Positions 25,571-51,169 of a stretch of 64,000 nt of DNA are shown one piece after another. The notes under the pieces were generated by a model that was not told the origin of the DNA, ran no database searches, and worked only from the letters and a program-made list of their open reading frames with translations. This DNA is from Methanolobus sp. WCC4 (GTDB lineage Archaea; Halobacteriota; Methanosarcinia; Methanosarcinales; Methanosarcinaceae). Position 1 is the first letter of the stretch; each line of letters begins with the position of its first letter. The translations under genes were made by a program, and so were the position numbers. Location: positions 1,594,480 to 1,658,479 of the forward strand of contig NZ_CP150629.1 in the NCBI RefSeq assembly GCF_038022665.1, in the 5' to 3' direction.

Positions 25571-25585
25571 TATAAAGGTGAAACA

Positions 25586-26557: not shown

Positions 26558-26603
26558 AAATAGCTTTTATTTAGGAAGTACTTTTAAACCTATTGGAGGA
26601 AGT

Positions 26604-28052: not shown

Positions 28053-28235
28053 AATATGTTCACAGAAAACAAAATCAATATTGAACAAAATAATTTAATA
28101 TTTTAAAGTTAGAAGTATCGTTTCAATATTTATCTGCAATACTCTTAAGGGCTATTAATAGGCAGATATTAATATATATTATAATGATACTAAATTGGGT
28201 AGGGACTTCAAATAGTAAATAGAGGAAGGATAAGT

Positions 28236-29411: not shown

Positions 29412-29490
29412 TGTATTTTTAATGGACTGAGACAAATTATCACTGATATTTTGTAGAAATCGTGAAAAATGAGACTATGTTTGAATATAT

Positions 29491-30597
29491 ATGAAATCAT
29501 CACAAAAAACAATCTACCATAATGAACCGACGATTGGGCAGGAAGAAATTGAAGCTGTCGCAGCTGCTCTCTCAAATCTGGAGTTAACAATAGGGTCAAA
29601 GGTTGAAATATTTGAAAGATCATTTTCAAAATATATCGGTATTAATTCGGTTTCAACCTCTTCTGGGACCTCCGCTCTTCATATGGCATTGAATGCTATC
29701 GGTGTATCAAAGGATGATCATGTAATAGTCCCTTCCTATACATGCATAGCTGTTGCTTTACCTGTATTGTATCAGCAAGCACGTCCCATTCTAGTTGATG
29801 TAAAGGACGATTTCAATATATCTGTTGATGAAATAAGAAAGAATATCACAGACAGGACAAAAGCAATAGTAGTCCCTCACATGTTTGGGTATCCTGCAGA
29901 TATGAATGAGATAAAAAAGTTGTGTGTGGATACTGGAATCTATATGATAGAGGACTGCTCACAATCCATTGGTGCCGAATATCATGGTAAAAAGGTCGGT
30001 ACGGTGGGGGATATTTCTATTTTCAGCTTTTATGCTACGAAACTGATGACCTCTATCAGAGGCGGGATGGTCTGTAGCAAGGACCCGCAACTTTTAGATT
30101 CAGTGAAGGAACTAAGGTATCATGATCAATGTCGCTTATCAGAAGATCATGATATGAGATTGAAATACAGTTATATGATGTCAGACATTGAAGCATCCGT
30201 GGGAATCATTCAATTAAGTAAGCTGGGAGACTTTATACTAAGAAGAAGGGAAATTTCAAAGATGTACAAGGAGCTGCTGGAAGGTTATAAGATAGAACAC
30301 CCTCCTGAAGATTCATACAAAAAACATGTTTTCTCACGTTATGTGATAAAGACACCATTTAATCCGGTAAAGGTGATTGACAGAATGAGGAGCAAGGATA
30401 TTTTTTGTGAACGGATGCACATTCCGCCACTCCATAAGCGCTCTTTGTTCAACAGTTCTCTTTCATCTACAGGATTTGCACAGACAGATAGGATTATCAA
30501 TTCTGCAGTATCATTGCCTATATATCCAACCCTTGATGATGATCAAGTTGTTTATATCATTGACTCGTTAAATGAGGTTTTAGGAGATTTTACTTAA
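29491..30597 (+). CDS. DegT/DnrJ/EryC1/StrS family sugar aminotransferase
   Basis: PLP-dependent transamination of a keto nucleotide sugar. 368 residues, standard length. Visible: TSSGTSALHMAL (56-67, phosphate binding), the ring-stacking EDCSQSIGA (154-162), and FSFYATK with the PLP lysine at 184. It overlaps the WbqC gene by one base (TAATG) and lies in the WbqC/PIG-L module. Perosamine- or 4-amino-4,6-dideoxy-type sugars are the most common products of this branch, but the substrate is not readable. Confidence 0.88.
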   Translation: MKSSQKTIYHNEPTIGQEEIEAVAAALSNLELTIGSKVEIFERSFSKYIGINSVSTSSGTSALHMALNAIGVSKDDHVIVPSYTCIAVALPVLYQQARPILVDVKDDFNISVDEIRKNITDRTKAIVVPHMFGYPADMNEIKKLCVDTGIYMIEDCSQSIGAEYHGKKVGTVGDISIFSFYATKLMTSIRGGMVCSKDPQLLDSVKELRYHDQCRLSEDHDMRLKYSYMMSDIEASVGIIQLSKLGDFILRRREISKMYKELLEGYKIEHPPEDSYKKHVFSRYVIKTPFNPVKVIDRMRSKDIFCERMHIPPLHKRSLFNSSLSSTGFAQTDRIINSAVSLPIYPTLDDDQVVYIIDSLNEVLGDFT

Positions 30598-31271
30598 TGA
30601 TAATAGCTGTTCATCAACCTAACTATTTGCCTTATCTGGGTTTTTTTGACAAAATGGAAAAAGCTGATATTTTTGTGATTTACGATAATGCTCAATTTAG
30701 TAAAGAAGATTATCATCACAGAAACAGAGTCAGGATATTCAATGGTTGGAAATGGCTGACAGTTCCAGTTGAAAAAAAACGTATACCTATTAATCAGATA
30801 ATGGTGGTGAACAGTTCTTCTACTAAAGAAGAGAATAAATGGAATCATAAACACTTAAGGGTCATTAGCGACAATTATAAGAATGCACCCTTTTATGAAG
30901 ATTATATAGATGCTTTTTACAAAATATATGAAAAAGAATATTGTTCTTTATGTGAATTGAATATGGACTTGATTCTTCTTTTGAAAGAAGCGTTTGATAT
31001 AGGCACGGAGATTCTCTATACAAGTGATTTAGGTCAGTTGTCCAGTTCGTCACAAGGATTAGTTGAGATTGTACAGAAAGTTGATGGAGACACTTATCTA
31101 TCCGGACAGGGTGGGAAAAACTATCTTGATATATCATTGTTTAAAGATAAGGGCATAAAAGTGGATTTCCAGAATTATGTTCATCCTATCTATAAGCAGT
31201 GCTACGAGGGTTTTGTTCCCTACATGTCAGCAATAGATGCATTGTTCAATACTGGTAAACTACCAATATAA
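30597..31271 (+). CDS. WbqC family protein
   Basis: 224 residues opening with AVHQPNYLPYLGFFDKM and YDNAQFSKEDYHHRNRVR, hallmarks of the WbqC family found in O-antigen and glycan loci. Biochemistry of the family is poorly known; it is often beside DegT aminotransferases and may transfer an acyl or amino-acid group to an amino sugar. Start overlaps the aminotransferase stop, and the next gene follows after 12 bases, so translation is coupled. Confidence 0.85.
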   Translation: MIIAVHQPNYLPYLGFFDKMEKADIFVIYDNAQFSKEDYHHRNRVRIFNGWKWLTVPVEKKRIPINQIMVVNSSSTKEENKWNHKHLRVISDNYKNAPFYEDYIDAFYKIYEKEYCSLCELNMDLILLLKEAFDIGTEILYTSDLGQLSSSSQGLVEIVQKVDGDTYLSGQGGKNYLDISLFKDKGIKVDFQNYVHPIYKQCYEGFVPYMSAIDALFNTGKLPI

Positions 31272-31283
31272 GGAGTAGGAATT

Positions 31284-31928
31284 ATGGCAAATGTTCTTGC
31301 AGTCGGAGCACATCCAGATGATGTTGAAATAGGTTGTGGAGGTACTGTTGCAAAACATATCTCTAAAGGAGATAATGTTGTAATAGTTATAATGATAGAA
31401 CCAGTGTCTTTTCATTATAGTGGAAAATCTATCCGCTCAAAAGATGAGGGGCATACTGAGTCAAAAAATGCAGTGGATATAATGGGAGCAAAACTGATTA
31501 ATCTGGGTTTTAAAGATAAGAATGTTCCCTATTCACAAGAAACTATTGAAGCACTTAATAGAATTATTGATGAATACAATATTGATATAATCTATACTCA
31601 TTGGTATCACGATACCCATCAGGATCATAAAAGGACCACAGAATCAGTAATATCTGCTGGCAGATATGTCCACAATATTCTGATGTATGAACCTGAGTAT
31701 CCTGCTGGCAGATCATATCTAGGCTTCAGAAATCAATACTATGTCGATATATCTAATGAGTTCAATGTAAAGATGGATGCATTAAAATGCCATAAAAGTC
31801 AAATCGAAAGATATGGCGATGATTTTCTGAAGGCTGTTGAGGCAAGAGCTATTCACAGAGGATATGAGATTCGCACGAAGTATGCTGAATGCTTTGAAGT
31901 TCTCCGGATGATGGACGATATACAATAA
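31284..31928 (+). CDS. PIG-L/LmbE family N-deacetylase
   Basis: 214 residues with the zinc-binding AHPDDVEIGCGGT (9-21) near the start and HWYHDTHQDHKRT in the middle supplying the histidine ligand. These enzymes remove N-acetyl groups from GlcNAc-type sugars. GGAGTAGGA precedes the ATG. Linked to the aminotransferase and WbqC genes, it suggests a modified amino sugar whose acetyl group is exchanged for another substituent. Confidence 0.9.
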   Translation: MANVLAVGAHPDDVEIGCGGTVAKHISKGDNVVIVIMIEPVSFHYSGKSIRSKDEGHTESKNAVDIMGAKLINLGFKDKNVPYSQETIEALNRIIDEYNIDIIYTHWYHDTHQDHKRTTESVISAGRYVHNILMYEPEYPAGRSYLGFRNQYYVDISNEFNVKMDALKCHKSQIERYGDDFLKAVEARAIHRGYEIRTKYAECFEVLRMMDDIQ

Positions 31929-31939
31929 TTACTTAAAGG

Positions 31940-33088
31940 TTGCTGAACACAGTGCGCATAGTTTTAATCAATGTACTTTCATGGGGCTCGAGTATTACAA
32001 AGCATACAGTCTCATATGCTAATGAACTGGTCAAAAATAATGATGTTCTTCTAATTTTGAAAGATGAAGCCATTTGGAAAGATATTGGTGTAATATCTAA
32101 AAATGTTCAGTGTTCGTACATTAAAACCTTTAAGGCAACTGATTCACGAAATATATTTTCGATTTATCGTATGCTACAAGAAATAAAAGACTTTAATCCG
32201 GATATAATTGATTTAAGGGCTGGCAATCCTTGGATGATTATCCTGTTTCCTTTGTTAAGAAAATATCCTATAATATCTACATTTGTAACTTCTAATCCAA
32301 GGGCTGGTGAAAAAGAACTAATCCACTATAGGCTGTACTCTTACATTACAAAAAAATACTCCGACCATTTGATAGTATTTGATTCATTTTCAAAAGATGA
32401 CATTTCTAGTAATTATTCAGTGTCTCCTTCAAAAATAAGTATTATTCCTATTGGTGATTATACTGGTGTGTTTACATCTATGAAGACAAATATAATGTCG
32501 AATTTGGACGAGAATGAACACAAATTCATTTTGTTCTTAGGAAGAATTGTTGCTTACAAGGGTTTGGAATTTCTTATTAAAGCTGAACCTGCTATCACAA
32601 AAGAAGTGCCAGATGCTAAGATTATAATTGCAGGTCCATGTGATGATTTTTCATATTACGAAAATTTAATGATAAACAAGGACTCTTTCATAGTCTATAA
32701 CTCTTGGATTGAGGGTGAAAAGATTCATGATTTGTTCTCAAAATCAAATGTCGTGGTGTTACCTTATATAGAGTATTCAAAAAGTGATAATATTCAGTTA
32801 GCTTATGCTTTTAAAAAACCAATCGTTGCAACGCAATTAGGTAGTGTCTCAGAATATATCCTAGATGGTAGAACTGGTTATTTAGTACCTCCAATGGATA
32901 TTGAAGCGCTAAGTGATGCAATAATAAAAATACTAAATAATCCTGATTTAGCAAAGGATATGGGTGAAAACGGGTTTGAGATATTAAAGCGCGGTTTTAT
33001 TTCCTGGCCAAACATTATATCGCAGACTACAGATATTTACTCAAACCTTTCAAATAAAGATAATGATCCATCGGAATACATAGTATGA
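31940..33088 (+). CDS. glycosyltransferase family 4 variant
   Basis: 382 residues if read from TTG 31940; a GTG at 31952 (VRIVLINVLSWG) is an alternative start. Donor domain shows FLGRIVAYKGLEFL and AGPCDDFSYY. The catalytic-region segment is EYSKSDNIQLAYAFKKPIVA, where the second glutamate of E-x7-E is replaced by Gln, a variant known in part of GT4. Last gene of the plus-strand run, facing the acyltransferase at 33119. Confidence 0.82.
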   Translation: MLNTVRIVLINVLSWGSSITKHTVSYANELVKNNDVLLILKDEAIWKDIGVISKNVQCSYIKTFKATDSRNIFSIYRMLQEIKDFNPDIIDLRAGNPWMIILFPLLRKYPIISTFVTSNPRAGEKELIHYRLYSYITKKYSDHLIVFDSFSKDDISSNYSVSPSKISIIPIGDYTGVFTSMKTNIMSNLDENEHKFILFLGRIVAYKGLEFLIKAEPAITKEVPDAKIIIAGPCDDFSYYENLMINKDSFIVYNSWIEGEKIHDLFSKSNVVVLPYIEYSKSDNIQLAYAFKKPIVATQLGSVSEYILDGRTGYLVPPMDIEALSDAIIKILNNPDLAKDMGENGFEILKRGFISWPNIISQTTDIYSNLSNKDNDPSEYIV

Positions 33089-33118
33089 ATTTACGGCCTA
33101 CAAAAATGAATTGCCATT

Positions 33119-33685
33119 TTATTCTACATTTTCTACTATAGTATTCTTATTCAAGTTTTGAGTATGTTCTTCAACCTTTTTATTGATTTTTGCTGGTACT
33201 CCTGACACAATTGTCATTGCTGGGACATCTTTTGTCACAACTGCTCCAGCTCCTATAATTGCTTTCTCACCAATATCAACACCAGGAAGAATTATAGCTC
33301 CAGCACCTATCCAAGCATCATTTCCAATAGTAATATCTTCAGTTTTAATTAAATTACCTTTTACGTAATCATTTGATTTAAGAAGTGAGTTATTTGGTGA
33401 TGAGCAAGATATCAAGATGACACCCGGGGATATAGCAACTCTATCTCCGATTTTAACTTTTATTTGAGTTGAAAATCTATCATCGACAATAATAACATTT
33501 TGATTTACAAAAGTATCGTCCCCAATTTCAATTCCTGTTAATTTAAAAAACTTTATTCTTATTTCAGGATCCGGATGATTTGAAGCTAGCCATTTTTTGT
33601 AAGTGTACGGTAAAAATCTGCCAACAGACATTAATATTTTATTAGGATAATCTTGAACAATCCATCTAAATAACTTTCTTGACAT
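33119..33685 (-). CDS. hexapeptide-repeat (left-handed beta-helix) O/N-acyltransferase
   Basis: 188 residues. Imperfect hexapeptide repeats are dense from about 50 to 165 ([62 protein letters not shown]), the acetyl-CoA binding fold of maltose/serine/CatB-like acetyltransferases. It would acetylate a sugar of the local glycan. It lies alone between the main cluster and IS copy C, with IS sequence starting about 55 bases upstream of its ATG, so its native promoter may be damaged or replaced. Confidence 0.88.
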
Positions 33686-33739
33686 TTGATTAAACGAGTA
33701 TCTTAAGATTTAAGCTAATTTCGGTAAGGGTAGATTTTC

Positions 33740-34732
33740 GGCTCTGTGAAATCCTCATTTTGACAACAAGTATAACCTTGACATACCTGTCAAGGTTATG
33801 CACTAATAGTTTGAATTTTACTTCTTTTAGTTGATTCCAATACCTTTCTGCTCTTATTTCTTCACCATATTTTCCTTTTCAGGAAAGAGAACATCGTTTC
33901 AACCAGATTTCTGTTATGATACAATTCTTTGTAGAATTCCCATGTCATTTTCCTGCGGTATAATCCTTTGACCCTCTTCCTCTTTTTGTCTCAAAGGAAT
34001 CATAGCTATGGATTCAAGTTGTTCTCTTGTTAGTGAATGTATATACTCAAAATTGTATCCTTTATCCATCACATAGTACTTTGATCTACAAGTTTTATGG
34101 CATTGCTTCAGTAATGTTTTGGCGTGCTTGATGTCTTTTACAGCTTTACCTGATATCTTGAAATCAGTAACAATGAACTTTGCTGTGTCAATGGAAATAC
34201 TTGCTTTAAAGAAAGATTTTCGTTTTTTCCTGTCCCCCATGAATAATAGCTACAATGGCCATTAGTAAACCCACTTGAACCAATAGCATTAATCTCTATC
34301 CGTTCTCCATGAGAATAAAGCAGTTTTAGTGTTTGGTGCAATAATCCACTAAAATTGATCGAGTTCAATTTTGCAATGAATTTATGAAAGTAGTAAAATG
34401 TGGTACTCGTTTTAGTCAAATTTTTGCTTTCACTTTGTCCATTACTTCTACAATTTCAACTATATCTCGATAATCCTCATTAAGGTATTCTTTCAATAAA
34501 ACAAGTTTCAATAGCTGGTGTCGAGTATATTTCCGTTTAGAACATTTGCAACTATATATCTGGATGCATGAATTTCCTGATACAGCTTGCGCTGTATCAA
34601 CAAACTTTAAGTACTTATTAGACAAAACACAATCATCTTCTCTGTGTTGTCGGTGGTAGATTAAGCTAAGGGATTAATCTTTTTTAAATTGTTATTTCAA
34701 AATAAAATTGGAAGTAGGTTTTCTACAGAGTC
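33740..34732 (-). mobile_element. IS5-like element (copy C) with 8-bp target duplication, transposase frameshifted
   Basis: 993 bases. Ends are GGCTCTGTGAAATCC on the left and, read inward from the right, GACTCTGTAGAAAACC. AGATTTTC is duplicated at 33732-33739 and 34733-34740. The transposase on the minus strand runs from about 34640 to 33780 in at least four frame segments: 34625-34416, 34419-34138, 34240-33914, then a piece ending [13 protein letters not shown], whose glutamate fits the DDE triad. QLLKLVLLKEYLNEDYRDI and YVMDKGY are typical of IS5-type enzymes. Better preserved than copy B but not intact. Family assignment is from motifs only. Confidence 0.8.
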
Positions 34733-34772
34733 AGATTTTCTGCATCTCATAAATTAAAATAATTCATAATAA

Positions 34773-36491
34773 CTATTTTTGAACTATGCATAGTTGTGTT
34801 TGTGAGTGGTATAATTGAATTGGATTTGAGCAATTCCACTTTTGTACTTCGCTATATTCTATTGCATAATCATTTAAACGATAGCGGTTTGAATTAAATC
34901 CATTGAACTTCACTATAATTTCATTATTAGTTATCGATGATATATGATTTAGCTGTTTGTCTACTGATTTTGTCTCTGAATATTGGTATTCTGAGTACAC
35001 TGCTGAAATTATAAGCACATTAATTAGCAATACAAGTATGATGGAGTAATTTATAATTTTGTATTTAATACTATTATTATTGTTTTTCTCCAATGAAATG
35101 AATAGTGGAAAAATAGGAAATAGCCATAATTGTGGTGCAAATCTTGCCCACCAAGATTCTGGAAAAATAAGAACAGATATTATTACTAATAATATTAATG
35201 TTGAAATTATCATTGAATTATTTTGTTTTTTTGTGATATCATATTTTTTCCCATTCAATATAAGCAAAATATTTAATACTGATAAAATAATTGCTCCGCT
35301 AAAAAAGGGTCCAAATCCTTCGATTCTTGCATCAGGTTTTCTAAATGACTTCAAATCGTCTTTGGTGAATGTAAAAGGAATTTTATATTCACTAATGCCT
35401 GATCCAGTGCTTGAATGTGAAAACAATGAGCTAAATAGTTTTTCAAATTGACTCATATTTTGGAGATTTGTCGGTGTGTTTCCAGTCATGAAGTCATAAT
35501 CGTCCATAATACTTGTTCCAATAAGAGGATAGAAAGGGTTGCCACCTGTAAGGGTGTTTGTAACATATGGGTTGAATCCGACAACTATTGTTCCTATTAA
35601 AAAGCTAGCTATTAAACATTTTGAAATTTTACTTAAATCACTTTTTTTATAGACATAAAACCAACACAAAAATCCAAATATAAATATTGCTAAATACAAA
35701 AGACCGGATAACTTTGCGTTGAGTATTATTATGATTAAGGCGCTTAACGTTACACTTCGTAATTTTGTAATTTTATCAGAAATTAATATGAATATAAAGA
35801 ATAAACAGGTGATAGTAGATGCTAAATATCCATCCACGTAAAAGCTAAGGGATTGGTAAATGCTTACAGGGTTCAATGAAATTATGAAAGCAAGGATTAG
35901 TCCAATCTTTATAGTAATAAAATCATACATTAGCAGAATCGTTGCAAAACTGATATAAAAAGAAGTAATTATTAAAAAGAGATTTATTGCCTTTCCGTCT
36001 TCTATATTTCCCGTTGCTCTAGAAATAGCTGCAGAATTTATCTCTAATCCTTTGGAATAATGGTTTGTAAAAATAAAACCTGAATTTTCATTTGAAATAA
36101 CATTGTAAACCGGATTATAGTCCTCTAATAATTGGATTATAGTTTCCTGATGATATGTTTGGCCATCCCAAGACAAATCAAAAAACGATCCCCCAATAAT
36201 GATACATAAAAATAATGATATACAAAATATGGTTGCTAGACTTAAAGAAATATAGTCCGTTTTTCTGCTTTTTCCAAAAACTTGGCGAGATGCGGAAAAG
36301 CACCATATGCATGCAATGATCAAAGCTAATATTAGAATTTTGTTCGAAAACTGTAATTTTAACAAAAAAACAAATGATGATAGTAGTAATATTGCTGAAG
36401 TAAATACTATGTTTGTCGAACCTAAAATTAAACAATAGTTTCCAACTTCATGTCGTATCATCATGTCTTTTATGTAAAAAAAGGATGGCAT
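34773..36491 (-). CDS. GT-C-like membrane glycosyltransferase
   Basis: 572 residues (possible later start at 36464). About 12 helices in the first 470 residues. The first outer loop has DLSWDGQTYHQETIIQLLE (about 122-140), an acidic motif in the position used by GT-C enzymes, and NHYSKGLEINSAAISR follows. A C-terminal soluble part of about 90 residues completes it. Strongly AT-rich. It stands alone between IS copy C and the large secreted protein. Function by architecture only. Confidence 0.6.
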   Translation of the reverse strand: MPSFFYIKDMMIRHEVGNYCLILGSTNIVFTSAILLLSSFVFLLKLQFSNKILILALIIACIWCFSASRQVFGKSRKTDYISLSLATIFCISLFLCIIIGGSFFDLSWDGQTYHQETIIQLLEDYNPVYNVISNENSGFIFTNHYSKGLEINSAAISRATGNIEDGKAINLFLIITSFYISFATILLMYDFITIKIGLILAFIISLNPVSIYQSLSFYVDGYLASTITCLFFIFILISDKITKLRSVTLSALIIIILNAKLSGLLYLAIFIFGFLCWFYVYKKSDLSKISKCLIASFLIGTIVVGFNPYVTNTLTGGNPFYPLIGTSIMDDYDFMTGNTPTNLQNMSQFEKLFSSLFSHSSTGSGISEYKIPFTFTKDDLKSFRKPDARIEGFGPFFSGAIILSVLNILLILNGKKYDITKKQNNSMIISTLILLVIISVLIFPESWWARFAPQLWLFPIFPLFISLEKNNNNSIKYKIINYSIILVLLINVLIISAVYSEYQYSETKSVDKQLNHISSITNNEIIVKFNGFNSNRYRLNDYAIEYSEVQKWNCSNPIQLYHSQTQLCIVQK

Positions 36492-36919: not shown

Positions 36920-39900
36920 ATGTTCTCAAAAAAAAACGTACTTTTTTTCATAACAATTTTTTCTTTTATAATTCTAATAATTGAACCTGCGATAGCTCAA
37001 GAACAAGCAATAATTTCATACGATCAGTCCTCAAAAACAATCTCAATTGAATCTGGAACAGCGACATTGCAAGACATTGCTGATAATATTAATGCTGTTG
37101 GTGTAATAGAACAAACTGATAATATTTATACTGTATCTGCAACTATTTATGTTGCTACGAATGCAGGGTTGGTACTTAATAATGATATATTAAAAATGAA
37201 TTGTTCGTTTGATGGAGAGTATGCCATAATCAATAATGGTGATTTAGATATAGTTTCTTCACATATTACAACAATAAATCCTAATTTTAATAGTTATATT
37301 GATTCATTTAATGCACGATATATTCCAAGGGGTTGGTCTTTTACCTTACTTGATAGTAGTATCTCGAACATGGGCAGTAATTCCCGAGGTATTCCAGCTA
37401 TTATGCTTGGACACATGGCCTCAGCAGTAGGCAATATTCCTAAATCTCCTGTTATTATTAAAAATTCAACTATGGAATATTGTGAATATGGATTACTAGA
37501 ATTTAACGCGTTTGGAATCCTTCCGGATGATTATTATATTGTTGAAAACAACAATTTTTTACAAATATCCAGTTCCAAAGTTGGTAATGCCGGACTTATT
37601 ACATTACCAGGTGGTTCACAATTCAAAAATAATTCTATAAGTTATGTTTCGACCAAGTCTTATCTTATCTGGACTATTGGACAGGCAGACGTATTGATTC
37701 AAAATAATGAATTATATTATTCAAATGCTTTGTGCCTTATAGGTAGCAAACATTCTAATAATGTTACTATCCAAGATAATTACATGTACGGCAACTCAGG
37801 TAGTGCTATAATCATCTACAAAGGGTGGGTCGACAATTATGAATTCGGTGATATTGTAATTAATAATACCATTAAAAAACACTATGGTGATTATGCTTTT
37901 AGGGTGCAATATTATTCAAGTGGTCGCAATATTATAAAAGACAACACCATTCAAAATGTAACTGGAAATGCCTTCTTTTTCTTAGCTACTAACAATACAC
38001 TTTTTGAAGGGAATACTATTCAAAGCTGCACGGGCACAGGAATTGACTTTTGGTCTACTAGTTATAGGGACGTGATGATGACAAATAGTAATTTGACGTT
38101 TAAAGACAACGTAATTCAGGATTGTTTCTACTCTTTGAATTTCATACACCCGGTTGAAAACTCTTTTTCCATAAATGATTCATATCTTGGAAGTGTAAAG
38201 GGCATACGTCAGATTACTAATTTTACTGGTGGCTTTATCAATCGTCATCCTGGTGATGGTGTGATACTTTCTGCTAATTCAGTATACAATGATTATAAGT
38301 ATCTTGATACAAAAGTAGTAGATATTAATGGAAACCCTTTGGAAAATGTAAAAGTAACTGTAAGAAATGATGTTGATACTAACTACCCTGCTGTTAATTT
38401 AGTTGGTGAAAAAAAGATATCTGTTCTGACTAGTGCAACAGGCCATATTCCTTCAGTCTCTAATCTGGAAAACTCACTAGCAATCATGGATTTCAAGAAA
38501 TCTTCATCTGAAACCAAACATATGAGTTACACAATTGAAGTAGAAAAAGATATAGTAATCAATCTGAGTTCAATAAAACCGGATTCAACTTGGTATCGTG
38601 AGAATTCCAGTGTATCTTCTTATACAATTACAGCCGTAATTCCTGAAGGAAGCACTTCCAATCCAAGTATAATTGGATTTGCTCCTAGCGAAAACAATCC
38701 GTTTACTAAAGGTGAGACCAAGAAGTTTCAGGTATGGTCTGATGAGGACCTGACGACAATGAAATGGTACGTTGATAGTGACCTTAGGTCTTCAGGATCA
38801 ATGTCCTATGACTGGACTGTGGAAACAGGTTCTCATACTATTATGTTCACAGGTTCAAACTCAAATGGTGCTGTAGTTAAAATATGGGAAATTACTGAAG
38901 GTGAATCGTCTGTAGAGTCTCCGGTATCTTCAGGTTCAACTCTTACATTTGTTCCATCAGCAACCTCTCTAACAGCAACAACAGGTGAATCCGCATCATT
39001 CTCTGTAGAGTCAAGCGATGAATTTGCTCTCACCACATGGTACCTCGACGATTTAGAAGTTGCTACTGGAACAACTACCTATATACAGGACTGGGACACA
39101 GCAGGAACTCACACATTGACATTTGAGGGACTTACAACCACAGAGACAATTACCAGAACATGGAATGCAGTTGTTTCAGAATCAGAACCGTCTGCATTCT
39201 CCTCTATAAGCATATCACCATCTTCAACTACTGTTGCGCCAGGTGAATCATTCACCATAGATGTGTATGTAGATCCTGCTGAAGCTCTTACAGGTTCACA
39301 GTTTGACCTTCAGTACAGCCAGTTTGCAAGTGTATCCACAGTTTCCGAGGGTAACCTGTTCACACAGGGAGGACTCTCAACAACGTTCGAGTACGGAAGT
39401 ATTGATAATACCCTTGGTGTCCTGACCGATGTCTACTCTGCAATAGTAGATTCAGGTACAGTTTCTGTGCCGGGTACTATGGCCACGATTACTATGAACG
39501 CAGGTACGGATTCAGGTATACTGGACCTGAGTCTTGGTAATGTTGTCCTGAGTGACGCAAGCTCCAACCCTGCAGGGTACACAGTGACAAGTACTTCAGT
39601 TCTTATTGATACAGCTCCGGTGTTCCCAACTATCTCTGCACAGTCAGTAGAGGAAGGCCTGACTCTGGGTTTCGATATAAGTGCAACTGATGCAGAGGGT
39701 GATGCACTGACGTATACATCTACATCAATTCCTTCTGGTGCATCATTAAGTGCTCAGACATTCAGCTGGACACCAGCAGACGGAGATGCAGGAAGCTATA
39801 CTGCAGTGTTTGAAGTAACGGATGGATATCTCACTGATACCTTGACTGTACCAATAACTGTGACACCAATGAACCATGCTCCTGTGATTACGCTCTTCGA

Positions 39901-40324
39901 ACCAGCCGATGAATCGGTCTTTGAGGAAGGTTCCATAATCGACGTGAATGTTGCCGCAAATGATGAGGACGGTGACAGTCTTAGCTACGTAATAAAAATA
40001 GATGGTATTCAGGTCTCTACTGCTTCAAGTTATGTATGGACAGTTGACTATGAATCAGCAGGAACCCATACTATCGAAGTGATAGTAAGTGATGGAACTG
40101 ACACTGTCAGCTCTTCAGGCACTGTAACCATTACAGACCTGCAGCCACGCTGGGATGTGAACGAGGATGGTGTTGTCAATGTACTTGACATCACACTAAT
40201 AGGCCAGAATTATGGTTCAAACTATTCTGAGGATTTGCCAAGGTGGGATGTCAATCAGGATGGTACGATTAACATTCAGGATTTGTCTATAGTTTCAGGT
40301 CATTTTGGTGAAACTGTTGAGTGA
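36920..40324 (+). CDS. secreted multidomain surface protein: beta-helix, Ig-like, cohesin and dockerin domains
   Basis: 1134 residues. An N-terminal signal peptide ends near IAQEQA (about 26). Residues about 100-440 form right-handed beta-helix repeats (many VIIKNSTMEYC / IIKDNTIQNVTGN turns), a pectate-lyase-like fold often binding or cutting polysaccharide. A carboxypeptidase-regulatory-like piece (VVDINGNPLENVKVTV, near 470) follows, then two Ig-like units around 580-745. Residues about 757-895 look like a cohesin (ISISPSSTTVAPGESFTID..., LTGSQFDLQY). Two further Ig/cadherin-like units follow to 1073. The end (about 1074-1134) is a type I dockerin with two calcium loops (DVNEDGVVNVLD, DVNQDGTINIQD). 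No membrane anchor or archaeosortase signal at the C-terminus. Confidence 0.8.
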   Translation: MFSKKNVLFFITIFSFIILIIEPAIAQEQAIISYDQSSKTISIESGTATLQDIADNINAVGVIEQTDNIYTVSATIYVATNAGLVLNNDILKMNCSFDGEYAIINNGDLDIVSSHITTINPNFNSYIDSFNARYIPRGWSFTLLDSSISNMGSNSRGIPAIMLGHMASAVGNIPKSPVIIKNSTMEYCEYGLLEFNAFGILPDDYYIVENNNFLQISSSKVGNAGLITLPGGSQFKNNSISYVSTKSYLIWTIGQADVLIQNNELYYSNALCLIGSKHSNNVTIQDNYMYGNSGSAIIIYKGWVDNYEFGDIVINNTIKKHYGDYAFRVQYYSSGRNIIKDNTIQNVTGNAFFFLATNNTLFEGNTIQSCTGTGIDFWSTSYRDVMMTNSNLTFKDNVIQDCFYSLNFIHPVENSFSINDSYLGSVKGIRQITNFTGGFINRHPGDGVILSANSVYNDYKYLDTKVVDINGNPLENVKVTVRNDVDTNYPAVNLVGEKKISVLTSATGHIPSVSNLENSLAIMDFKKSSSETKHMSYTIEVEKDIVINLSSIKPDSTWYRENSSVSSYTITAVIPEGSTSNPSIIGFAPSENNPFTKGETKKFQVWSDEDLTTMKWYVDSDLRSSGSMSYDWTVETGSHTIMFTGSNSNGAVVKIWEITEGESSVESPVSSGSTLTFVPSATSLTATTGESASFSVESSDEFALTTWYLDDLEVATGTTTYIQDWDTAGTHTLTFEGLTTTETITRTWNAVVSESEPSAFSSISISPSSTTVAPGESFTIDVYVDPAEALTGSQFDLQYSQFASVSTVSEGNLFTQGGLSTTFEYGSIDNTLGVLTDVYSAIVDSGTVSVPGTMATITMNAGTDSGILDLSLGNVVLSDASSNPAGYTVTSTSVLIDTAPVFPTISAQSVEEGLTLGFDISATDAEGDALTYTSTSIPSGASLSAQTFSWTPADGDAGSYTAVFEVTDGYLTDTLTVPITVTPMNHAPVITLFEPADESVFEEGSIIDVNVAANDEDGDSLSYVIKIDGIQVSTASSYVWTVDYESAGTHTIEVIVSDGTDTVSSSGTVTITDLQPRWDVNEDGVVNVLDITLIGQNYGSNYSEDLPRWDVNQDGTINIQDLSIVSGHFGETVE

Positions 40325-40401: not shown

Positions 40402-41376
40402 CTAATCTCTCAATAATTCCTTGACTGTGAGCCTAACACTCTTTTCTGAGTTAAGTTCAGGTTTCCATCCCTTTTCCTTTAATTTATTAATTGAAAGTGA
40501 CATTTTAGGGACATCGCCTTTCCATCCTCGTTTTCCACCAGTATAGGTAAATTCAACGTTTTCAAGTCCCATTTCTTCAGCAATAATTTTCCCAATCCTA
40601 GTGGTGGTAATTATGTCCTCTGATCCAATATTGAATATGTTTACTTCATCTTTAGAGTTTTCAATTGAAAACATAATTGATTTGACACATTCTTCTACAT
40701 GAAGATAGGACTTGGATTGTTTCCCGTCTCCAAGGATTTCAAGTATTTCTGGATTTTGTCTTAGTTTTCTGATGAAATCAACTATTACACCGTGTGTTCC
40801 CCTGTCCCCAATGATGTTTGCAAATCTGAATATCCATGACTTGATGTTAAATGTGTGTGAATAAGATGTGATCAATGCTTCACATGATAATTTGGATGCC
40901 CCATAGAGTGATATTGGCACAAGAGGGCCATAATTCTCAGGAGTTGGAATAACTGTTGCTTCGCCATATACTGTGGACGTGGATGTAAAAGCAATATTTT
41001 GAATTTTTTTCTTTCGAACAGCTTCAAGCACATTATAAGTTGCCTTTATATTCTGATTAAAATGAACTTTTGTATCGGTCATACCCAGTTTGACATCCGG
41101 GTTTGCAGCTACATGAAAAACGATGTCAATATTTTCACATGCCTCTTCTATCTCACTATCGTTCAGCAGATCTCCTTCGAATAAATTGAAATAAGGTTGG
41201 TCTAAGTGTTTTCCCAGAAAATCTATCTTCCCGGAACTTAAATTATCGAAAACTACGATGTCATTTCCTGCTTTTGAAAGTTGATCCACGATGTGGCTTC
41301 CAATAAATCCTGCTCCTCCAGTAACTAAAATACGTTTTTTCGTGAGATCATATGTTCCCGTGTTCACTATTTTCAA
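40402..41376 (-). CDS. NAD-dependent nucleotide-sugar epimerase (GalE-like SDR)
   Basis: 324 residues. Extended SDR fold: VTGGAGFIGSHIVDQL (NAD binding, about 19-34), FTSTSTVYGE, and the catalytic Y-x3-K in SLYGASKLSCEAL. Most like archaeal UDP-glucose/UDP-GlcNAc 4-epimerases. It begins five bases after the GlcNAc-phosphate transferase stop, so the pair is one transcript; the epimerase may set the sugar that the transferase or next enzymes use. Confidence 0.85.
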   Translation of the reverse strand: MKIVNTGTYDLTKKRILVTGGAGFIGSHIVDQLSKAGNDIVVFDNLSSGKIDFLGKHLDQPYFNLFEGDLLNDSEIEEACENIDIVFHVAANPDVKLGMTDTKVHFNQNIKATYNVLEAVRKKKIQNIAFTSTSTVYGEATVIPTPENYGPLVPISLYGASKLSCEALITSYSHTFNIKSWIFRFANIIGDRGTHGVIVDFIRKLRQNPEILEILGDGKQSKSYLHVEECVKSIMFSIENSKDEVNIFNIGSEDIITTTRIGKIIAEEMGLENVEFTYTGGKRGWKGDVPKMSLSINKLKEKGWKPELNSEKSVRLTVKELLRD

Positions 41377-41381: not shown

Positions 41382-42362
41382 TTAAATCCTGCCGGGCAGC
41401 AGTATCCCGAGTAAACAGAAGAGACCGGTTAATGCGTACATTGCATAAGTTGCCTGTTTTTCTGTAACATTATAATAATATGGAAGCACCCATTTCAATG
41501 TGAGTTGATTTGGAACTTCCAGTATACCATCACCACGATCTTTCCCAAACTTTGCTTTGGGTAATTTTCGTGCTCTCCAGTAAACGTACATCAGAAAGTT
41601 CACCGTATGAGGAATCAGCATTATAAATCCACTGACTATGAAACCCTGGATAACAATGATCGTACCAATGGTTGCACCAATTGTTAAAGAACCCACGTTA
41701 CCCCAGAAAATCTTTGATGGATATCTGTCATACAAGAAATATGCGACAGTAGCTCCTGTGATGCTTACAACTGCAAAAATGTTCTCAACATCTGACAATA
41801 TAATAGATTTCAGGATTAGGGATAACAGTACTATTACAGACAGGCCTGAAGCAAGACCGTTGTACCCAGAATGCATATTTACGAGGTTGGATGCAACCAG
41901 GACATATGTGGGTACTATGAATTGCAAATAGAGGATTCCAAGTTCGATACTCCCAAAAGCCGGAAGAATGAAAGCTGTATGTGTAGCATACTGAATTAAT
42001 GGATATGAACAATAGTACATCAATAAGAGTTTTGTTACCCTCCCGATATCTATCATATCGTCCAGTACTCCAAACAGTCCGAAAAGGGCGATAACTATTA
42101 ATACCACATAATTTGTGGTCGAGAACTTGAAAAAAAGTGTATTGAGCGAGAAGGATACCATGGAAATAAGCAGAATGGCAATTCCCCCTCTTTCCGGAAC
42201 CATCGTCTTCTTGTGTTTGTAATAATCCCTTGCAAGAATGCCTTTTTCAGTTAGCTTATTTATGAAATAAGGCATTGACAAATATGTTGCTAAAAAAGGT
42301 ACCATAAAATTGCTGGCTAGTACGATGCCAAGTAGTTTGGTAGGGGTTTCTAAGTCAAGCAT
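41382..42362 (-). CDS. MraY/WecA-family polyprenyl-phosphate sugar-1-phosphate transferase (GlcNAc-1-P type)
   Basis: Starts lipid-linked glycan assembly by moving a HexNAc-1-phosphate onto polyprenyl (dolichyl) phosphate. 326 residues, about ten helices. Motifs: VPERGGIAILL (about 54-64), FGVLDDMID with the metal-binding DD (about 98-106), NMHSGYNGLASGLS, and FWGNVGSLTIGATIG. The profile resembles archaeal and eukaryotic GPT enzymes more than bacterial MraY. The only initiating transferase of this type in the window, so it may prime several of the glycans here. Confidence 0.88.
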   Translation of the reverse strand: MLDLETPTKLLGIVLASNFMVPFLATYLSMPYFINKLTEKGILARDYYKHKKTMVPERGGIAILLISMVSFSLNTLFFKFSTTNYVVLIVIALFGLFGVLDDMIDIGRVTKLLLMYYCSYPLIQYATHTAFILPAFGSIELGILYLQFIVPTYVLVASNLVNMHSGYNGLASGLSVIVLLSLILKSIILSDVENIFAVVSITGATVAYFLYDRYPSKIFWGNVGSLTIGATIGTIIVIQGFIVSGFIMLIPHTVNFLMYVYWRARKLPKAKFGKDRGDGILEVPNQLTLKWVLPYYYNVTEKQATYAMYALTGLFCLLGILLPGRI

Positions 42363-42745: not shown

Positions 42746-44311
42746 ATGGCAACGGTAGCGGTAATTCCAACTTTTAATGAAGAAGTTCATATACACGATG
42801 TAATAAAAAAAACTAAACATTATGTTGATGCCATTGTCGTTGTAGATGATTGCAGTACAGATTCAACTGCATTTATTGCTCATAATTTAGGGGCGAAGGT
42901 TGTTAAACATGAACACCATATGGGGAAAGCTGAAGCTTTGAAGTCAGGCTTTAAGGCTGCAATGGCTTTAAATCCAGAAATTATAGTCACTCTTTATGCA
43001 AATGGTAAGCATAATCCAGAAGATATTCCTAAACTAGTTGAGCCTATATATTGGCTTGAATACGATGTGGTTTCGGGAACTACACATTTTAGTGATTCTA
43101 CTGGTTTCCCGACGTTTGACGAGGAATTTTCTTCTGATGAACACTTATTATTTGATGCAAAAGTGAATGCAGATTCCCTCGACAAGTGTATGGGATTTAC
43201 TGCATTTTCATCAAAAATTTTTGATACCCTTCATTTTCATGAAAATGGAGATAGTGTTGAAGTTTCTCTTCTTAAGGATGCCTACAATGGAGGTTTCAAT
43301 GTCAGAATGCTTTCATCATCATGTTTACATAATCATGACTTGGAGCTTTTTCAGGATTATCGTATAGGGGTTGTTGTTGCTGCTTACAATGAGGAGACAT
43401 TAATTAAGACAACAGTCAATGGAATGCCTGATTATATTGATCGAATATATGTGATTAATGATTGCAGTACTGACGCTACGGCAGAAGTGTTAAAGACCAT
43501 TGATGATCAACGCTTGAGTATAATTACCCATGAAGTAAACCAAGGCGTTGGCGCGGCGAACCTTCATGGTTATCAGGAAGCTCTTAAAGAAAACATGGAT
43601 ATTGTTGTGATAATGAATGGTGACAATCAGATGAATCCTCTACAACTTCCGTACTTATTGTATCCGATTATTGAAGGTAAAGCGGACTATACAAAAGGAA
43701 ATCGTCTTTTCTGTGAGGAGTATCGTGTAGGTATGAGCAAATGGAGGGCATTTGGTAATGGTCTCCTTACAATGGTTACCAAGATTGCAAGTGGTTACTG
43801 GCACATTATGGACCCTCAAAATGGCTATACGGCTATCTCCAAAAAGGCTCTCTCAAATATAGAGATTCATACTCTCTACACTTATTATGGTTATTGCAAC
43901 GATATGCTAATCAAACTTAACACATTTGGTTTTCGTACTATGGACATACCTATGCCATCTCGCTACGGTCAGGAGAAATCTTCAATTAAGTACGGTCGGT
44001 ACATGGGAAAAGTTTCACTTATGCTTTTCCGCAAGTTTTTATGGAGACTTAAGACGAAGTACATGATATTAAACTTCCACCCTCTTGTGCTATTTTACAT
44101 ATTTGGTATGATTCTGTTACCTTTGGGTTTTGTGTTTGGAGTTTATATTTTCCTGACAAAAGTTATATTTGGATATCCTATATCACCAAATTTTCCCTTA
44201 CTTGACGCATTATTAATAATAACAGGTATACAGTTTACGTTGTTTGCAATGCTATTTGATATGCAAGAATGTAATCGTCAGAGTGATTTCGCCTCATATC
44301 GCTGTAAATAA
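42746..44311 (+). CDS. tandem glycosyltransferase family 2 with degenerate first domain
   Basis: 521 residues containing two GT2 (GT-A) domains: about 1-200 and 205-420, then two membrane helices (about 447-515). Both start with a VAVIPTFNEE or VVVAAYNEET strand and have a DDCSTD or NDCSTD loop. The metal-binding DxDGQH region is lost in domain 1 (YANGKHNPED, 84-93) and only partly changed in domain 2 (MNGDNQMNP, 290-298). Domain 2 resembles dolichyl-phosphate sugar synthases. Domain 1 is therefore probably a non-catalytic duplicate. Preceded by the candidate operator at 42566. Confidence 0.8.
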   Translation: MATVAVIPTFNEEVHIHDVIKKTKHYVDAIVVVDDCSTDSTAFIAHNLGAKVVKHEHHMGKAEALKSGFKAAMALNPEIIVTLYANGKHNPEDIPKLVEPIYWLEYDVVSGTTHFSDSTGFPTFDEEFSSDEHLLFDAKVNADSLDKCMGFTAFSSKIFDTLHFHENGDSVEVSLLKDAYNGGFNVRMLSSSCLHNHDLELFQDYRIGVVVAAYNEETLIKTTVNGMPDYIDRIYVINDCSTDATAEVLKTIDDQRLSIITHEVNQGVGAANLHGYQEALKENMDIVVIMNGDNQMNPLQLPYLLYPIIEGKADYTKGNRLFCEEYRVGMSKWRAFGNGLLTMVTKIASGYWHIMDPQNGYTAISKKALSNIEIHTLYTYYGYCNDMLIKLNTFGFRTMDIPMPSRYGQEKSSIKYGRYMGKVSLMLFRKFLWRLKTKYMILNFHPLVLFYIFGMILLPLGFVFGVYIFLTKVIFGYPISPNFPLLDALLIITGIQFTLFAMLFDMQECNRQSDFASYRCK

Positions 44312-44393
44312 CTATTCAAAAGTAATATATTCATAAAAAAATTAATATATTTATCTATGTTGTGATATCTTTATTGTTAGTGAGTGGTGCTTT

Positions 44394-45737
44394 ATGCAAG
44401 GATTGATGAAAAAAATAAATGATGGTAGTGCATGTGTAGGAATTATTGGCTTAGGATATGTTGGGCTGCCTTTGGCTGTTGAATTTTCTAAAAAGTTTGA
44501 TGTTATTGGATATGATGTTAATCAGTTAGCCGTTGAGCAGCTTTTGAATGGAATTTCCTATATTCAAGATGTTCCCAATTCTACTCTTTCTGCACAAGTT
44601 AATCAGTCTTTTCATCCAACTACAAATCAGGAAGAACTTTCAAAATGTGATTTCATATTAATTTGTGTTCCAACACCTCTCACCTTAGCTAATGAACCTG
44701 ATCTTAAGTACATTAAGGATGCATGCGAAACAATCTCTGAAATATTAAGAAAAGGTCAACTTATCATTCTTGAAAGTACAACTTATCCGGGTACTACTGA
44801 AGAAATAGTACTTCCTATACTGGAGTCATCTGGTTTGAAAGTCATGGATGATTTTGGTCTTGCGTATTCGCCTGAAAGAATAGATCCCGGTAATGCTAAA
44901 TATACTGTTTCAAATACTGCTAAAGTAGTAGGTGGCATTAATAAGGAGAGCACAGAAATTGCCTCCAAGTTGTACGGAAGCATTATTGATCAGGTAGTTC
45001 CTGTAACGGATGCTAAAACCGCTGAAGCCGTAAAGATTGTTGAAAATATTTTCAGGAATGTAAATATAGCTCTTGTGAATGAACTTTCGTTGATATTTGA
45101 AAAAATGGACATCGATGCCTGGGAAGTGATAGATGCAGCATCCACAAAACCCTATGGCTTCATGCCGTTTTATCCGGGTCCTGGTGTAGGTGGTCATTGC
45201 ATTCCTCTTGATCCATTCTATATGTCATATAAAGCCAAAAAACATGATTTCATTCCTCGATTTATTGAGACTTCAGGTGAAATTAACAATTTTATGAAAA
45301 TTCATGTTATCAATTTGGTCGAAAAGGGATTGAATCAAGTCAGTAAAAGAATATATGGATCAACAGTTGCAGTATTGGGATTGGCTTATAAGAAGGATAT
45401 TGATGATACAAGAGAATCTCCTTCTAAAAAGATAATTGAAGAACTTGTAAATCTTGGAGCTAGTGTAAAAACATATGATCCATATGCTTCTTTCATAGAA
45501 ACTGGTGCTGGAAAATTTAATTCCGAAACAAGTATGGAAACTACCTTGGATGATGTGGACTGTGCTATATTTGTAGTTGATCATACCATCTTTAAGGAAA
45601 TTGATCTTAGGAATGTAGCTAGACTTATGAAATCTCCAGTTATTGTCGATTGCAAAAATGTATTCTCAGATATGGATGGATTTGTATATTTGGGCATTGG
45701 AAAAGCAATAAATACGGACAGTTATAATATAAAATAA
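44394..45737 (+). CDS. UDP-glucose/UDP-HexNAc 6-dehydrogenase (WbpO/TviB-like)
   Basis: NAD-dependent two-step oxidation of C6 of a UDP-sugar to the uronic acid. 447 residues. Rossmann motif GIIGLGYVGLPLAVEF (16-31), ESTTYPGTTEE (127-137), SPERIDPG (159-166), and catalytic Cys269 in GVGGHCIPLDP. The SPERIDPGN form and length are like the UDP-GalNAc/GlcNAc dehydrogenases WbpO and TviB rather than UDP-glucose dehydrogenase. It follows the tandem GT2 on the same strand. A distinct second dehydrogenase lies at 60830. Confidence 0.87.
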   Translation: MQGLMKKINDGSACVGIIGLGYVGLPLAVEFSKKFDVIGYDVNQLAVEQLLNGISYIQDVPNSTLSAQVNQSFHPTTNQEELSKCDFILICVPTPLTLANEPDLKYIKDACETISEILRKGQLIILESTTYPGTTEEIVLPILESSGLKVMDDFGLAYSPERIDPGNAKYTVSNTAKVVGGINKESTEIASKLYGSIIDQVVPVTDAKTAEAVKIVENIFRNVNIALVNELSLIFEKMDIDAWEVIDAASTKPYGFMPFYPGPGVGGHCIPLDPFYMSYKAKKHDFIPRFIETSGEINNFMKIHVINLVEKGLNQVSKRIYGSTVAVLGLAYKKDIDDTRESPSKKIIEELVNLGASVKTYDPYASFIETGAGKFNSETSMETTLDDVDCAIFVVDHTIFKEIDLRNVARLMKSPVIVDCKNVFSDMDGFVYLGIGKAINTDSYNIK

Positions 45738-45832
45738 TTTTATGCTCTTACAAATTTGCAAGTGGTATAGCTATTAATGTTTTAAGTTTTATAATATGTA
45801 CATTTCAAGAAAGAGTAATTGGGACATAAAAA

Positions 45833-46873
45833 ATGAACCTGAAATTTATTGCACTGATAGTTTCTTTGCTAGTAAGCATTTTTTGTCCTTTTGTGGTAAG
45901 TGCACAAAATGTTGTTTTTGACAATTCCGCAGGTTTTTTTGGAATCGACTCTTACAGCGGAGTTGGAGTTGCGCTACTTGCTGATGAATTAAGATTAGAA
46001 GGGTATGATGTCAAAGAAACAAATGATTTTCATAATGTAGATTGCTCAATGATTACGGATGATATGTTGAATAGTACAGATATACTTGTATTAATAAATC
46101 CACGAAGGTCTTTTAGTTTTGAAGAGAAAATTGTAGTGAATAAGTTTGTAACAAATGGAAAAAGTCTTTTGTTAGTTTGTGACAATCCCGAATCAATTGA
46201 ATATGCAAATACGCTTTCTTCGGTATTTGGTGCATGGTTCCTTCCACAGTATCTTGGAGACGTTTTCATAAACTCAACGTTGGGACAAATGCATTTCTAT
46301 TCCCCTTTACCAATAATCACTGATATTGAACCGGATATTTCAATTCAGTATGAGGGATCTGCAGGTGATTGGACAAACCGCTGGATTATCCCTGAAAAAA
46401 CCTATAATTCATCATATAGCATTTTATCCGGTTTTAATTATGGTGAGGGAAGGATTATATTGTTGGGTGATAGTGATATTCTTCAGAATGAGAATTTTAA
46501 CGCTAATAAGGACTTCAATATGTTGGTTTTTGATTATTTATGCAATAATGATACTGACACGAAAGTAAGTTACTCTCCAGATGCACTTCAGATCACTACA
46601 GATGAAAGTAAAAAAGGAATAGCATATTTGCATGTAAAAAACACTTGTGACTATAATGTAACTATTGACTTAATAAAACCTCCTTTACTTGACAATATAA
46701 TTACAATTAATCCCCAAGTAATCAAGTTGGAGCCAGGGCAGGAATCACAAGTTATTCTTTTAGCTACCTGGAATGAGAGTTATTCCAGTATTAGTGACAT
46801 TATACGGATTGAGACGGATTATGGTTTAATCACTCAAAATGATTATTTTGGAGTTACGGTTGGTTTTCTATGA
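45833..46873 (+). CDS. exported protein with GldG/DUF4350-like (GATase-fold) domain
   Basis: 346 residues. A signal peptide (FIALIVSLLVSIFCPFVVSAQ) ends near residue 24. Residues about 30-240 read like a class I glutamine amidotransferase-like fold (DILVLINPRRSFSFEEKIVVNKFVTNGKSLLLV and GRIILLGDSDI), as in GldG-type and DUF4350 proteins, but without a visible catalytic cysteine. A beta-sandwich-like tail follows. It overlaps the next gene by four bases (ATGA), so the pair is translationally coupled. Function unknown; sensing or binding on the outer surface is a guess. Confidence 0.6.
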   Translation: MNLKFIALIVSLLVSIFCPFVVSAQNVVFDNSAGFFGIDSYSGVGVALLADELRLEGYDVKETNDFHNVDCSMITDDMLNSTDILVLINPRRSFSFEEKIVVNKFVTNGKSLLLVCDNPESIEYANTLSSVFGAWFLPQYLGDVFINSTLGQMHFYSPLPIITDIEPDISIQYEGSAGDWTNRWIIPEKTYNSSYSILSGFNYGEGRIILLGDSDILQNENFNANKDFNMLVFDYLCNNDTDTKVSYSPDALQITTDESKKGIAYLHVKNTCDYNVTIDLIKPPLLDNIITINPQVIKLEPGQESQVILLATWNESYSSISDIIRIETDYGLITQNDYFGVTVGFL

Positions 46874-47961
46874 GATGGATTCCCATTTTTATGCTAGTCT
46901 TTATTTTGTTTCTGCCTACGCCTGTCATTGCAGATGATATTACTATCACCTATGACCAAGTTCTCATCGGTGACAATCATATTTTCTGGTATGGTCAGGG
47001 TGAACTTATCTCGGAAGCTGGAAATGATTTCTTTTTTGATTATGGCGAAAGTGAAATATTAACCACTAGCAGCAGTGCGAAAGCTGTAGGACTTGACGAT
47101 TCTAAAATACATTTCAGCTCATCCAATGATGTATTTGAAGCAAATTTCCTTTCTTCGATGCCGGAAACATTTGGAACGGGTATTTTTAAAGTATACACTA
47201 TTAAAGTTGAACTTCCTGAAGTTAATGAAGAAAAAAAAGTTCAAATTAAAATAGAGGATGCAGGAAAGATTATTGTCTCGAATGTCGATATAATAAGCAG
47301 TAAAACAGATGGGCAGTATTTAATTCTTAATTTTGAAACAAAGAATCGTGATATGGAAATAACGTATATTACAAAACCTACATTTAAATTATTTTCAATT
47401 CTACTTGCCACTGCATTATTTTCATTGTTGTTTTTAATTTTAATTCTCATTAGAAGAATAGATATTCTGGAAGGCATCAAAATGAATGTCAATGACTTTA
47501 AAAAGGCAGCAATATTCGAATCACGCATGAACAAAGACAATTACGAACTATCTTTGGATCTGTTCAAATTAAAGCTTTACAATTTACTTGAAATTAGTGG
47601 CAACAGATTTTATTTGAGAATTCCTTTCTGGCTATTCTATTGTTTTATTTTTATAGTCCTTTTGTGTTCATTTTTTAGATCTATGACTTACCCGGTGGAA
47701 GATATCTGGAACATGCTTAATAGAGGTCGTATAGTGATATTCTTTTTTGTATCTGTATTAGCTTTGTTATCATTGATACTGATTGCGTCTATCAGGACAG
47801 ATCGGGATGCTTCCATAGTTTTTGGATTGATAGGGGGATGCCTTGTTGGAATAATTTTATCTCATTTCGGTTCAATAGCAGTTATCCTTTCTCTAACTAC
47901 CGCTCTGCTAATTTATTTCCTATCAATGGCAGCACTCAACAAAAATTTAGCAGAGGTGTGA
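46870..47961 (+). CDS. exported multi-pass membrane protein of unknown function
   Basis: 363 residues. A signal peptide (RWIPIFMLVFILFLPTPVIA) ends near residue 22; a beta-rich outer domain runs to about 170; a membrane helix follows (about 174-196), then a cytoplasmic stretch of about 55 residues and four to five more helices to the C-terminus. Overlaps the GldG/DUF4350-like gene by four bases and is followed directly by a GT2 stub with a good ribosome-binding site, so these three once formed an operon. No family recognised. Confidence 0.6.
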   Translation: MRWIPIFMLVFILFLPTPVIADDITITYDQVLIGDNHIFWYGQGELISEAGNDFFFDYGESEILTTSSSAKAVGLDDSKIHFSSSNDVFEANFLSSMPETFGTGIFKVYTIKVELPEVNEEKKVQIKIEDAGKIIVSNVDIISSKTDGQYLILNFETKNRDMEITYITKPTFKLFSILLATALFSLLFLILILIRRIDILEGIKMNVNDFKKAAIFESRMNKDNYELSLDLFKLKLYNLLEISGNRFYLRIPFWLFYCFIFIVLLCSFFRSMTYPVEDIWNMLNRGRIVIFFFVSVLALLSLILIASIRTDRDASIVFGLIGGCLVGIILSHFGSIAVILSLTTALLIYFLSMAALNKNLAEV

Positions 47962-47962
47962 T

Positions 47963-48025
47963 TTGAAACTCATTGTAACAATACCAGCATATAAGGACGG
48001 AAAGACAATAGGAAATTTGAAGTAA
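47963..48025 (+). pseudogene. N-terminal stub of a glycosyltransferase family 2 gene
   Basis: A TTG at 47963 has GAGGTG upstream and begins KLIVTIPAYKDGKTIGN, the first strand of dolichyl-phosphate-type GT2 enzymes (usual form IPAYNEEKTIG). After 20 codons it stops at TAA (48023-48025) and the sequence changes to the rfbC leader. I infer the rest of the gene was lost when the rfb genes arrived or by an adjoining deletion. Confidence 0.6.
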
Positions 48026-48055
48026 GTAAATTTACTTGAAAATTGAATCATAATA

Positions 48056-48619: not shown

Positions 48620-48662
48620 TTTTTATTAATTATTTGTGACTGATAAATATTGACAAGAGGAG

Positions 48663-51155: not shown

Positions 51156-51169
51156 GTTGGAGGTCCAGG

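Follow-up and report, generated by a model that had tools for sequence, protein, structure and literature searches.

A conserved cohesin-dockerin tail with exchangeable heads beside glycan genes in Methanolobus

Related systems and the layout of the protein

Bacterial scaffoldins contain both cohesin and dockerin domains. In cellulosome scaffoldins the two share one protein and the dockerin is C-terminal, as in the Methanolobus sp. WCC4 protein described here, but the latter has a single cohesin rather than several and its host is a methanogen. The initial annotation of this protein regarded cohesin and dockerin in one chain as unusual; however, scaffoldins, proteins of ANME archaea, and at least four other proteins of the same genome have both, and the combination is already known from archaeal polypeptides. 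The role of archaeal cohesins and dockerins outside cellulosomes is unknown (PMC5244752). Like our protein, those of Archaeoglobus and ANME archaea are surface-located or secreted and match PF00963 and PF00404, in some cases within a single chain, with no cellulosome in either case (PMC9012536, PMC5244752). In ANME archaea, one protein can combine a dockerin with as many as five cohesins (PMC9012536). Compared with these, the present family adds exchangeable heads on a conserved cohesin-dockerin tail at a glycan island, which neither paper describes (PMC9012536, PMC5244752).

Two further systems resemble the locus in how it varies. VARTIG, an Ig surface protein of Thermococcales, has a variable part that is swapped in situ between species at a hypervariable locus (PMC8416519). 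In VARTIG (arCOG07710-type) the C-terminal Ig domain varies, whereas here the N-terminal head varies, the C-terminus is among the best-conserved parts of an Ig/cohesin/dockerin tail, and glycan genes adjoin. That study describes mosaic proteins in Methanosarcinales and reports no counterpart of VARTIG outside Thermococcales (PMC8416519). Replacement flexible genomic islands are gene clusters for exposed structures, exchanged through homologous recombination at their conserved flanks (PMC4033161). Our locus likewise shows differing gene content among relatives at one place between conserved flanks, but because one of its boundaries falls within a coding gene, a chimeric surface protein results each time. 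A literature search of mainly openly accessible papers returned no description of the locus. The new element is that a composition break marks a conserved tail with an exchangeable head beside glycan genes.

The window, a 64,000-nucleotide stretch of contig NZ_CP150629.1 (positions 1,594,480 to 1,658,479), contains an open reading frame at 36920-40324 on the + strand that encodes a 1134-aa protein with a signal peptide (MFSKKNVLFFITIFSFIILIIEPAIA, assigned by eye). Its features are as follows.

36920-36997, + strand: signal peptide, residues 1-26, cleavage after AIA (direct sequence reading)
36998-38630, + strand: variable head, residues 27-570, right-handed beta-helix and linker region (PF13229; NosD, PF05048)
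37610-38062, + strand: Beta_helix match, residues 231-381 (PF13229, Pfam scan)
38612-38705, + strand: recombination/composition boundary, residues ~565-595 (GC change point at 38,631; identity to G005 drops below residue ~593)
38675-39187, + strand: Ig-like stalk, residues 586-756, start of the conserved tail (AF2 beta-sandwiches)
39215-39607, + strand: cohesin domain, residues 766-896 (PF00963; six-frame genome search and domain-only scan)
39614-39859, + strand: Big_9/He_PIG Ig domain, residues 899-980 (Pfam)
39881-40081, + strand: Big_7/PKD-like Ig domain, residues 988-1054 (Pfam)
40145-40321, + strand: dockerin, residues 1076-1134, with two DxNxDGxxNxxD loops (PF00404)

A secreted archaeal protein combining beta-helix, cohesin, and dockerin domains had been proposed from the sequence, and Pfam scores above the cut-offs bear this out, with Cohesin PF00963, Dockerin_1 PF00404, and Beta_helix all matched. 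In the head, Beta_helix PF13229 was found at E 7e-15 to 4e-16 across Pfam scans, and NosD PF05048 also matches. Run on the head without an alignment, AF2 produced an unusable model (pLDDT 40), leaving Pfam as the sole basis for its fold, and no catalytic or active site was identified in it. We found no carbohydrate-binding module in the protein by Pfam and no C-terminal transmembrane segment by direct reading.

The tail was modeled by AF2 with a mean pLDDT of 80.6, mostly 85-93 over the cohesin domain; the dockerin model is unreliable (pLDDT <50). Foldseek with the tail matched only generic Ig chains, and residues 586-756 match no Pfam family. In a scan of residues 754-897 alone (profile positions 4-139 of 139) the cohesin scored 27.3 bits, above its cut-off of 24.1; the six-frame genome search gave 26.8 bits and placed it at 39215-39607. 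It was not listed in the Pfam scan of the full-length protein. PF00963 is matched by 15 of the 17 orthologous domains (E<=0.01). The dockerin scored 38.6 to 45.2 bits (cut-off 22.9) and has canonical, intact calcium loops at residues 1079-1090 and 1110-1121 (DVNEDGVVNVLD and DVNQDGTINIQD); it is among the best-kept regions of the family (PRWDVN, LPRWDVNQDG). Elsewhere in the same genome, at 1.088-1.099 Mb (L055), frames of 2575 and 862 aa consist of tandem Big_9/Big_7-like Ig repeats that are 33-48% identical to the Ig domains of this protein.

Exchange of heads on a conserved tail

The protein was compared across 27 Methanolobus genomes and, order-wide, 186 genomes. The tail (residue ~450-670 onward) is present in 18 other Methanolobus genomes, including a short broken copy in G014, and is 50-73% identical to 16 other Methanolobus proteins; alignments across the genus never extend into the first 320 residues. 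The tail profile matches 50 of the 186 genomes (E<=1e-40), some matches covering part of the tail only, and the window head (residues 24-450) is found in 1 of the same 186 and has no relative among them at E<=1e-6. A related-locus search with the whole protein returned no matches, because the query patterns probably fell partly in the variable head. With the tail alignment as the query, matches appeared in M. vulcani, M. profundi, M. bombayensis, M. psychrotolerans, and M. halotolerans, and more distantly in Methanosarcina and ANME-2. The G014 copy (L106:1749-2876) is truncated to the tail, has in-frame stops inside the match, and is likely decaying.

At least six head types sit on this tail, including several beta-helix families and DNRLRE-bearing, PA14, and DUF4082-like heads. 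Type A occurs in five Methanolobus and one Methanosarcina, with a DNRLRE domain in the one examined. Type B, a beta-helix, occurs in six Methanolobus and five loci from other genera. A GHN (mostly GHNG) motif is invariant in ten aligned type B heads at a mean column identity of only 35%, and is a possible active or binding site. Type C, also a beta-helix, is found in G020-G022, L146, and L149, and tentatively in G025, while G015 has a PA14 head and G002 a DUF4082-like one. The beta-helix head of the window was kept as its own type, since profile comparison with type B detected no more than a weak similarity at the N-terminus (probability 13%). A viral source of the head was unsupported, with no phage match by tblastn and no PHROG.

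The GC content of the gene rises from 0.321 to 0.442, with the best change point at residue 570 (window 38,631; 2dLL 52.8, whereas 200 permutations gave at most 13.9). The composition step noted in the initial annotation thus stands, but its position at 38.9 kb does not, the change point lying ~0.3 kb upstream. The fourfold-degenerate sites of the two halves of this gene do not differ (0.21 vs 0.25, p 0.35), so the step is mainly one of amino-acid composition, and we dropped the GC step alone as proof of fusion. In orthologues, silent-site GC differs between head and tail in G006 (0.25 vs 0.54, p 2e-14), G012 (p 1e-11), G003 (p 1e-10), and also G004; no strong difference was seen in G008. The fusion-type junction itself was confirmed by comparative data as a recombination boundary at residue ~565-595.

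Close relatives illustrate the exchange. G024 and G008 have tails that are 92% identical and a neighboring glycosyltransferase (GT4) at 97%, with heads at 34%. In G004/G020 (tails 87%) and G019/G006 (tails 90%) the head types are unrelated, and in several close pairs the DNA identity falls sharply near the start of the stalk. The converse is seen in G007/G001, where heads are 85% and tails 70% identical and DNA identity is ~0.93 through much of the head and ~0.6-0.7 in the tail. On the tail tree, head types A, B, and C require 7 changes, and type A heads as a single clade are rejected (p-AU 1.6e-54). When other genera are included, Methanolobus tails form one clade (support 100/100), and a Methanolobus clade is rejected for the type B heads (p-AU 3e-7). 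The head closest to that of G008 comes from Methanosarcina (43%), despite the near identity of the G008 tail to that of G024. The type B heads are long-branched, and single placements are unsure except for G008/Ms_L140 and G003/G005. Together, the comparisons of sequence show that heads have been exchanged across species and genera on a conserved tail.

The locus and its glycan cassettes

The gene lies between a variable cassette and a block of conserved genes.

22287-36491, strand not given: variable glycan cassette at the head end of the gene (similarity and position)
40402-41376, - strand: NAD epimerase/dehydratase between the gene and GT4 (PF01370)
41382-42362, - strand: Glycos_transf_4 (GT4, WecA/MraY-like), the conserved 3' neighbor in most orthologous loci (PF00953)
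59285-63957, strand not given: remainder of the conserved block, comprising epimerase, ~200-aa membrane protein, UDP-sugar dehydrogenase, oxidoreductase, and aminotransferase (similarity)

On the tail side, GT4 adjoins the end of the gene in 11 other Methanolobus loci (76-82% identical) and in Methanosarcina-type loci (68-73%). It is absent from the locus in G023, G006, G015, and G003, and some loci end at contig ends (G019, G012). The NAD epimerase/dehydratase was not found at that position in orthologous loci. There the block genes adjoin GT4 at 45-94% identity, in the order epimerase, ~200-aa membrane protein, and UDP-sugar dehydrogenase, followed by the oxidoreductase and aminotransferase where the contig continues. 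In the window, a stretch at 42.7-58.7 kb separates GT4 from the rest of the block. This stretch (42746-58733, ~16 kb) contains a UDP-sugar dehydrogenase and genes that resemble RmlA/B/C/D in sequence start and order, and looks like an insertion into a block that is continuous in relatives.

On the head side, the window cassette includes glycosyltransferase-, flippase-, WbqC-, and PIG-L-like genes. Its content differs between species, with glycosyltransferases, flippases, and similar genes facing the head end. On this variable side, fragments resembling a broken transposase lie at 33914-34419 (- strand), between a hexapeptide transferase gene and a 572-aa membrane protein.

Head and tail similarity are uncorrelated (rs 0.04, p 0.35; rs -0.07 in a second analysis). 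Head similarity is weakly correlated with how many genes are shared within the nearest 8.5-9 kb (p 0.035) and with shared cassette genes across 22 loci (p 0.02), in a permutation test that takes loci as exchangeable and falls short of a full phylogenetic correction. The clearest cases of a shared head and cassette are G005/G003, which have a 12-kb cassette in common, and G001/G012 within Methanolobus, and G024/Ms_L142 and G008/Ms_L140 between genera. Most type A head pairs have no proximal cassette gene in common.

Function of the head, docking partners, and rival readings

We lean toward a reading in which an Ig stalk carries a glycan-acting head, the dockerin holds the protein to anchored cohesins, and recombination replaces the head along with the glycan island. 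The modular protein would be exported to the cell surface, where binding or cleavage of a surface polysaccharide is the most likely task of the N-terminal head (beta-helix here, other folds elsewhere). This head would be carried by the Ig/cohesin stalk, and the C-terminal dockerin would hold the protein at the surface, most likely by binding cohesin proteins that are membrane-anchored via PGF-pre-PGF/C-terminal transmembrane segments. The gene would span the edge of the variable glycan-biosynthesis island, with its 5' head half in the island and its 3' half in the conserved flank. Recombination in the conserved tail and beyond would then swap the head, in many cases together with some of the glycan cassette, and each strain may thereby obtain a head suited to its own glycan. 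The reading joins observed features (domain content, conserved tail, breakpoints, weak head-cassette association, and the adjacent cohesin genes of Methanosarcina-type loci) to a glycan ligand, dockerin partner, recombination route, and functional match that we infer.

A role in binding or acting on surface polysaccharide is suggested by the disaggregatase paralogues and by the fold families of the heads, most of which are glycan-active (beta-helix, DNRLRE, and weak GH28 and Pel9A-like matches). For the window head, the fold family points to polysaccharide binding. The disaggregatase of M. mazei (PF06848/PF08480) cuts methanochondroitin, a polysaccharide of the related Methanosarcina whose genes are unidentified (PMC12369344). 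Paralogues in two Methanolobus genomes, G003b and G012b, share one head and the Big_7 and dockerin end; G003b (L107), the one scanned, has the disaggregatase domains PF06848/PF08480. The disaggregatase-type proteins lie at L107:2674-6099 and L108:7518-10085 and carry the Big_7+dockerin end of the window protein, which suggests that Methanolobus has dockable polysaccharide-degrading enzymes. A further likeness is the DNRLRE domain of the type A head. The window protein has no Pfam match to the Disaggr_repeat or Disaggr_assoc domains that are present in L107. No obvious cellulase was seen among the examined proteins with dockerin matches in the genome.

The heads could instead be exposed adhesins or virus targets, their exchange selected by viruses or neighbors and the cassette link due to hitch-hiking. 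We give this switching of receptors or antigens roughly a one-in-four standing, and it does not exclude a glycan-acting head. It fits the weak head-cassette association, the PA14 and DUF4082-like heads, and the homologous recombination of replacement islands for exposed structures, which is tied to phage pressure (PMC4033161). The glycan-active fold families of most heads and the disaggregatase paralogues speak against it.

Profile searches of the genome, a single 2.85-Mb contig, found 14 cohesin and 7 dockerin matches. The initial annotation had suggested self-assembly into a surface lattice. In this model the cohesin of one copy would bind the dockerin of another, enclosing the cell in a chain or lattice, which we consider rather improbable. 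Cohesin and dockerin are indeed kept together in most Methanolobus tails, and the window cohesin groups with membrane-anchored cohesins, separated (100/100) from the cohesins of the clusters at 2.62 and 2.76 Mb. However, the genome offers other candidate partners in several distinct cohesin proteins with transmembrane anchors, and a dedicated cohesin gene adjoins the locus in Methanosarcina-type genomes. In seven such loci, a same-strand gene for a secreted cohesin protein lies 15-624 bp downstream. The downstream proteins of 422-435 aa have a C-terminal hydrophobic segment, and both of those tested have PGF-pre-PGF (184-196 bits); the shorter ones (187-250 aa) have the cohesin only. A homologue in the window's genome, at 1,775,887-1,777,161 and ~140 kb from the window gene, has PGF-pre-PGF at 175 bits. 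Daisy-chaining through the protein's own cohesin is possible, and anchoring to another cohesin protein appears at least as likely. The 2.62 and 2.76 Mb clusters (L051, L052) are similar to each other; each holds cohesin+dockerin proteins along with two kinds of small protein, a cohesin that ends in a C-terminal transmembrane segment and a secreted dockerin protein, and their cohesins form a type distinct from that of the window.

Fast divergence of heads in place under relaxed or diversifying selection, with no exchange and a step due to amino-acid content, agrees with the equal fourfold-site GC of the window gene but is very improbable given the unrelated folds found at a single locus, the head pairs that are closer across genera than within one, the G007/G001 heads that are more similar than their tails, the silent-site GC jumps of orthologues, and the AU tests.

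A bolder extension of the glycan-acting reading, which we put forward tentatively and think unlikely to hold in full, is a matched set across the family, each island encoding a polysaccharide and its head, and the pair crossing genera as a unit onto a dockerin-bearing stalk. If true, the matched head-glycan set would be an interchangeable surface-identity system, in which the head reads, cuts, or fastens the polysaccharide. The conserved dockerin tail and the adjacent anchored cohesin of Methanosarcina-type genomes provide a concrete, testable pair, and the tail may serve as a marker for locating surface-polysaccharide loci in Methanosarcinales.
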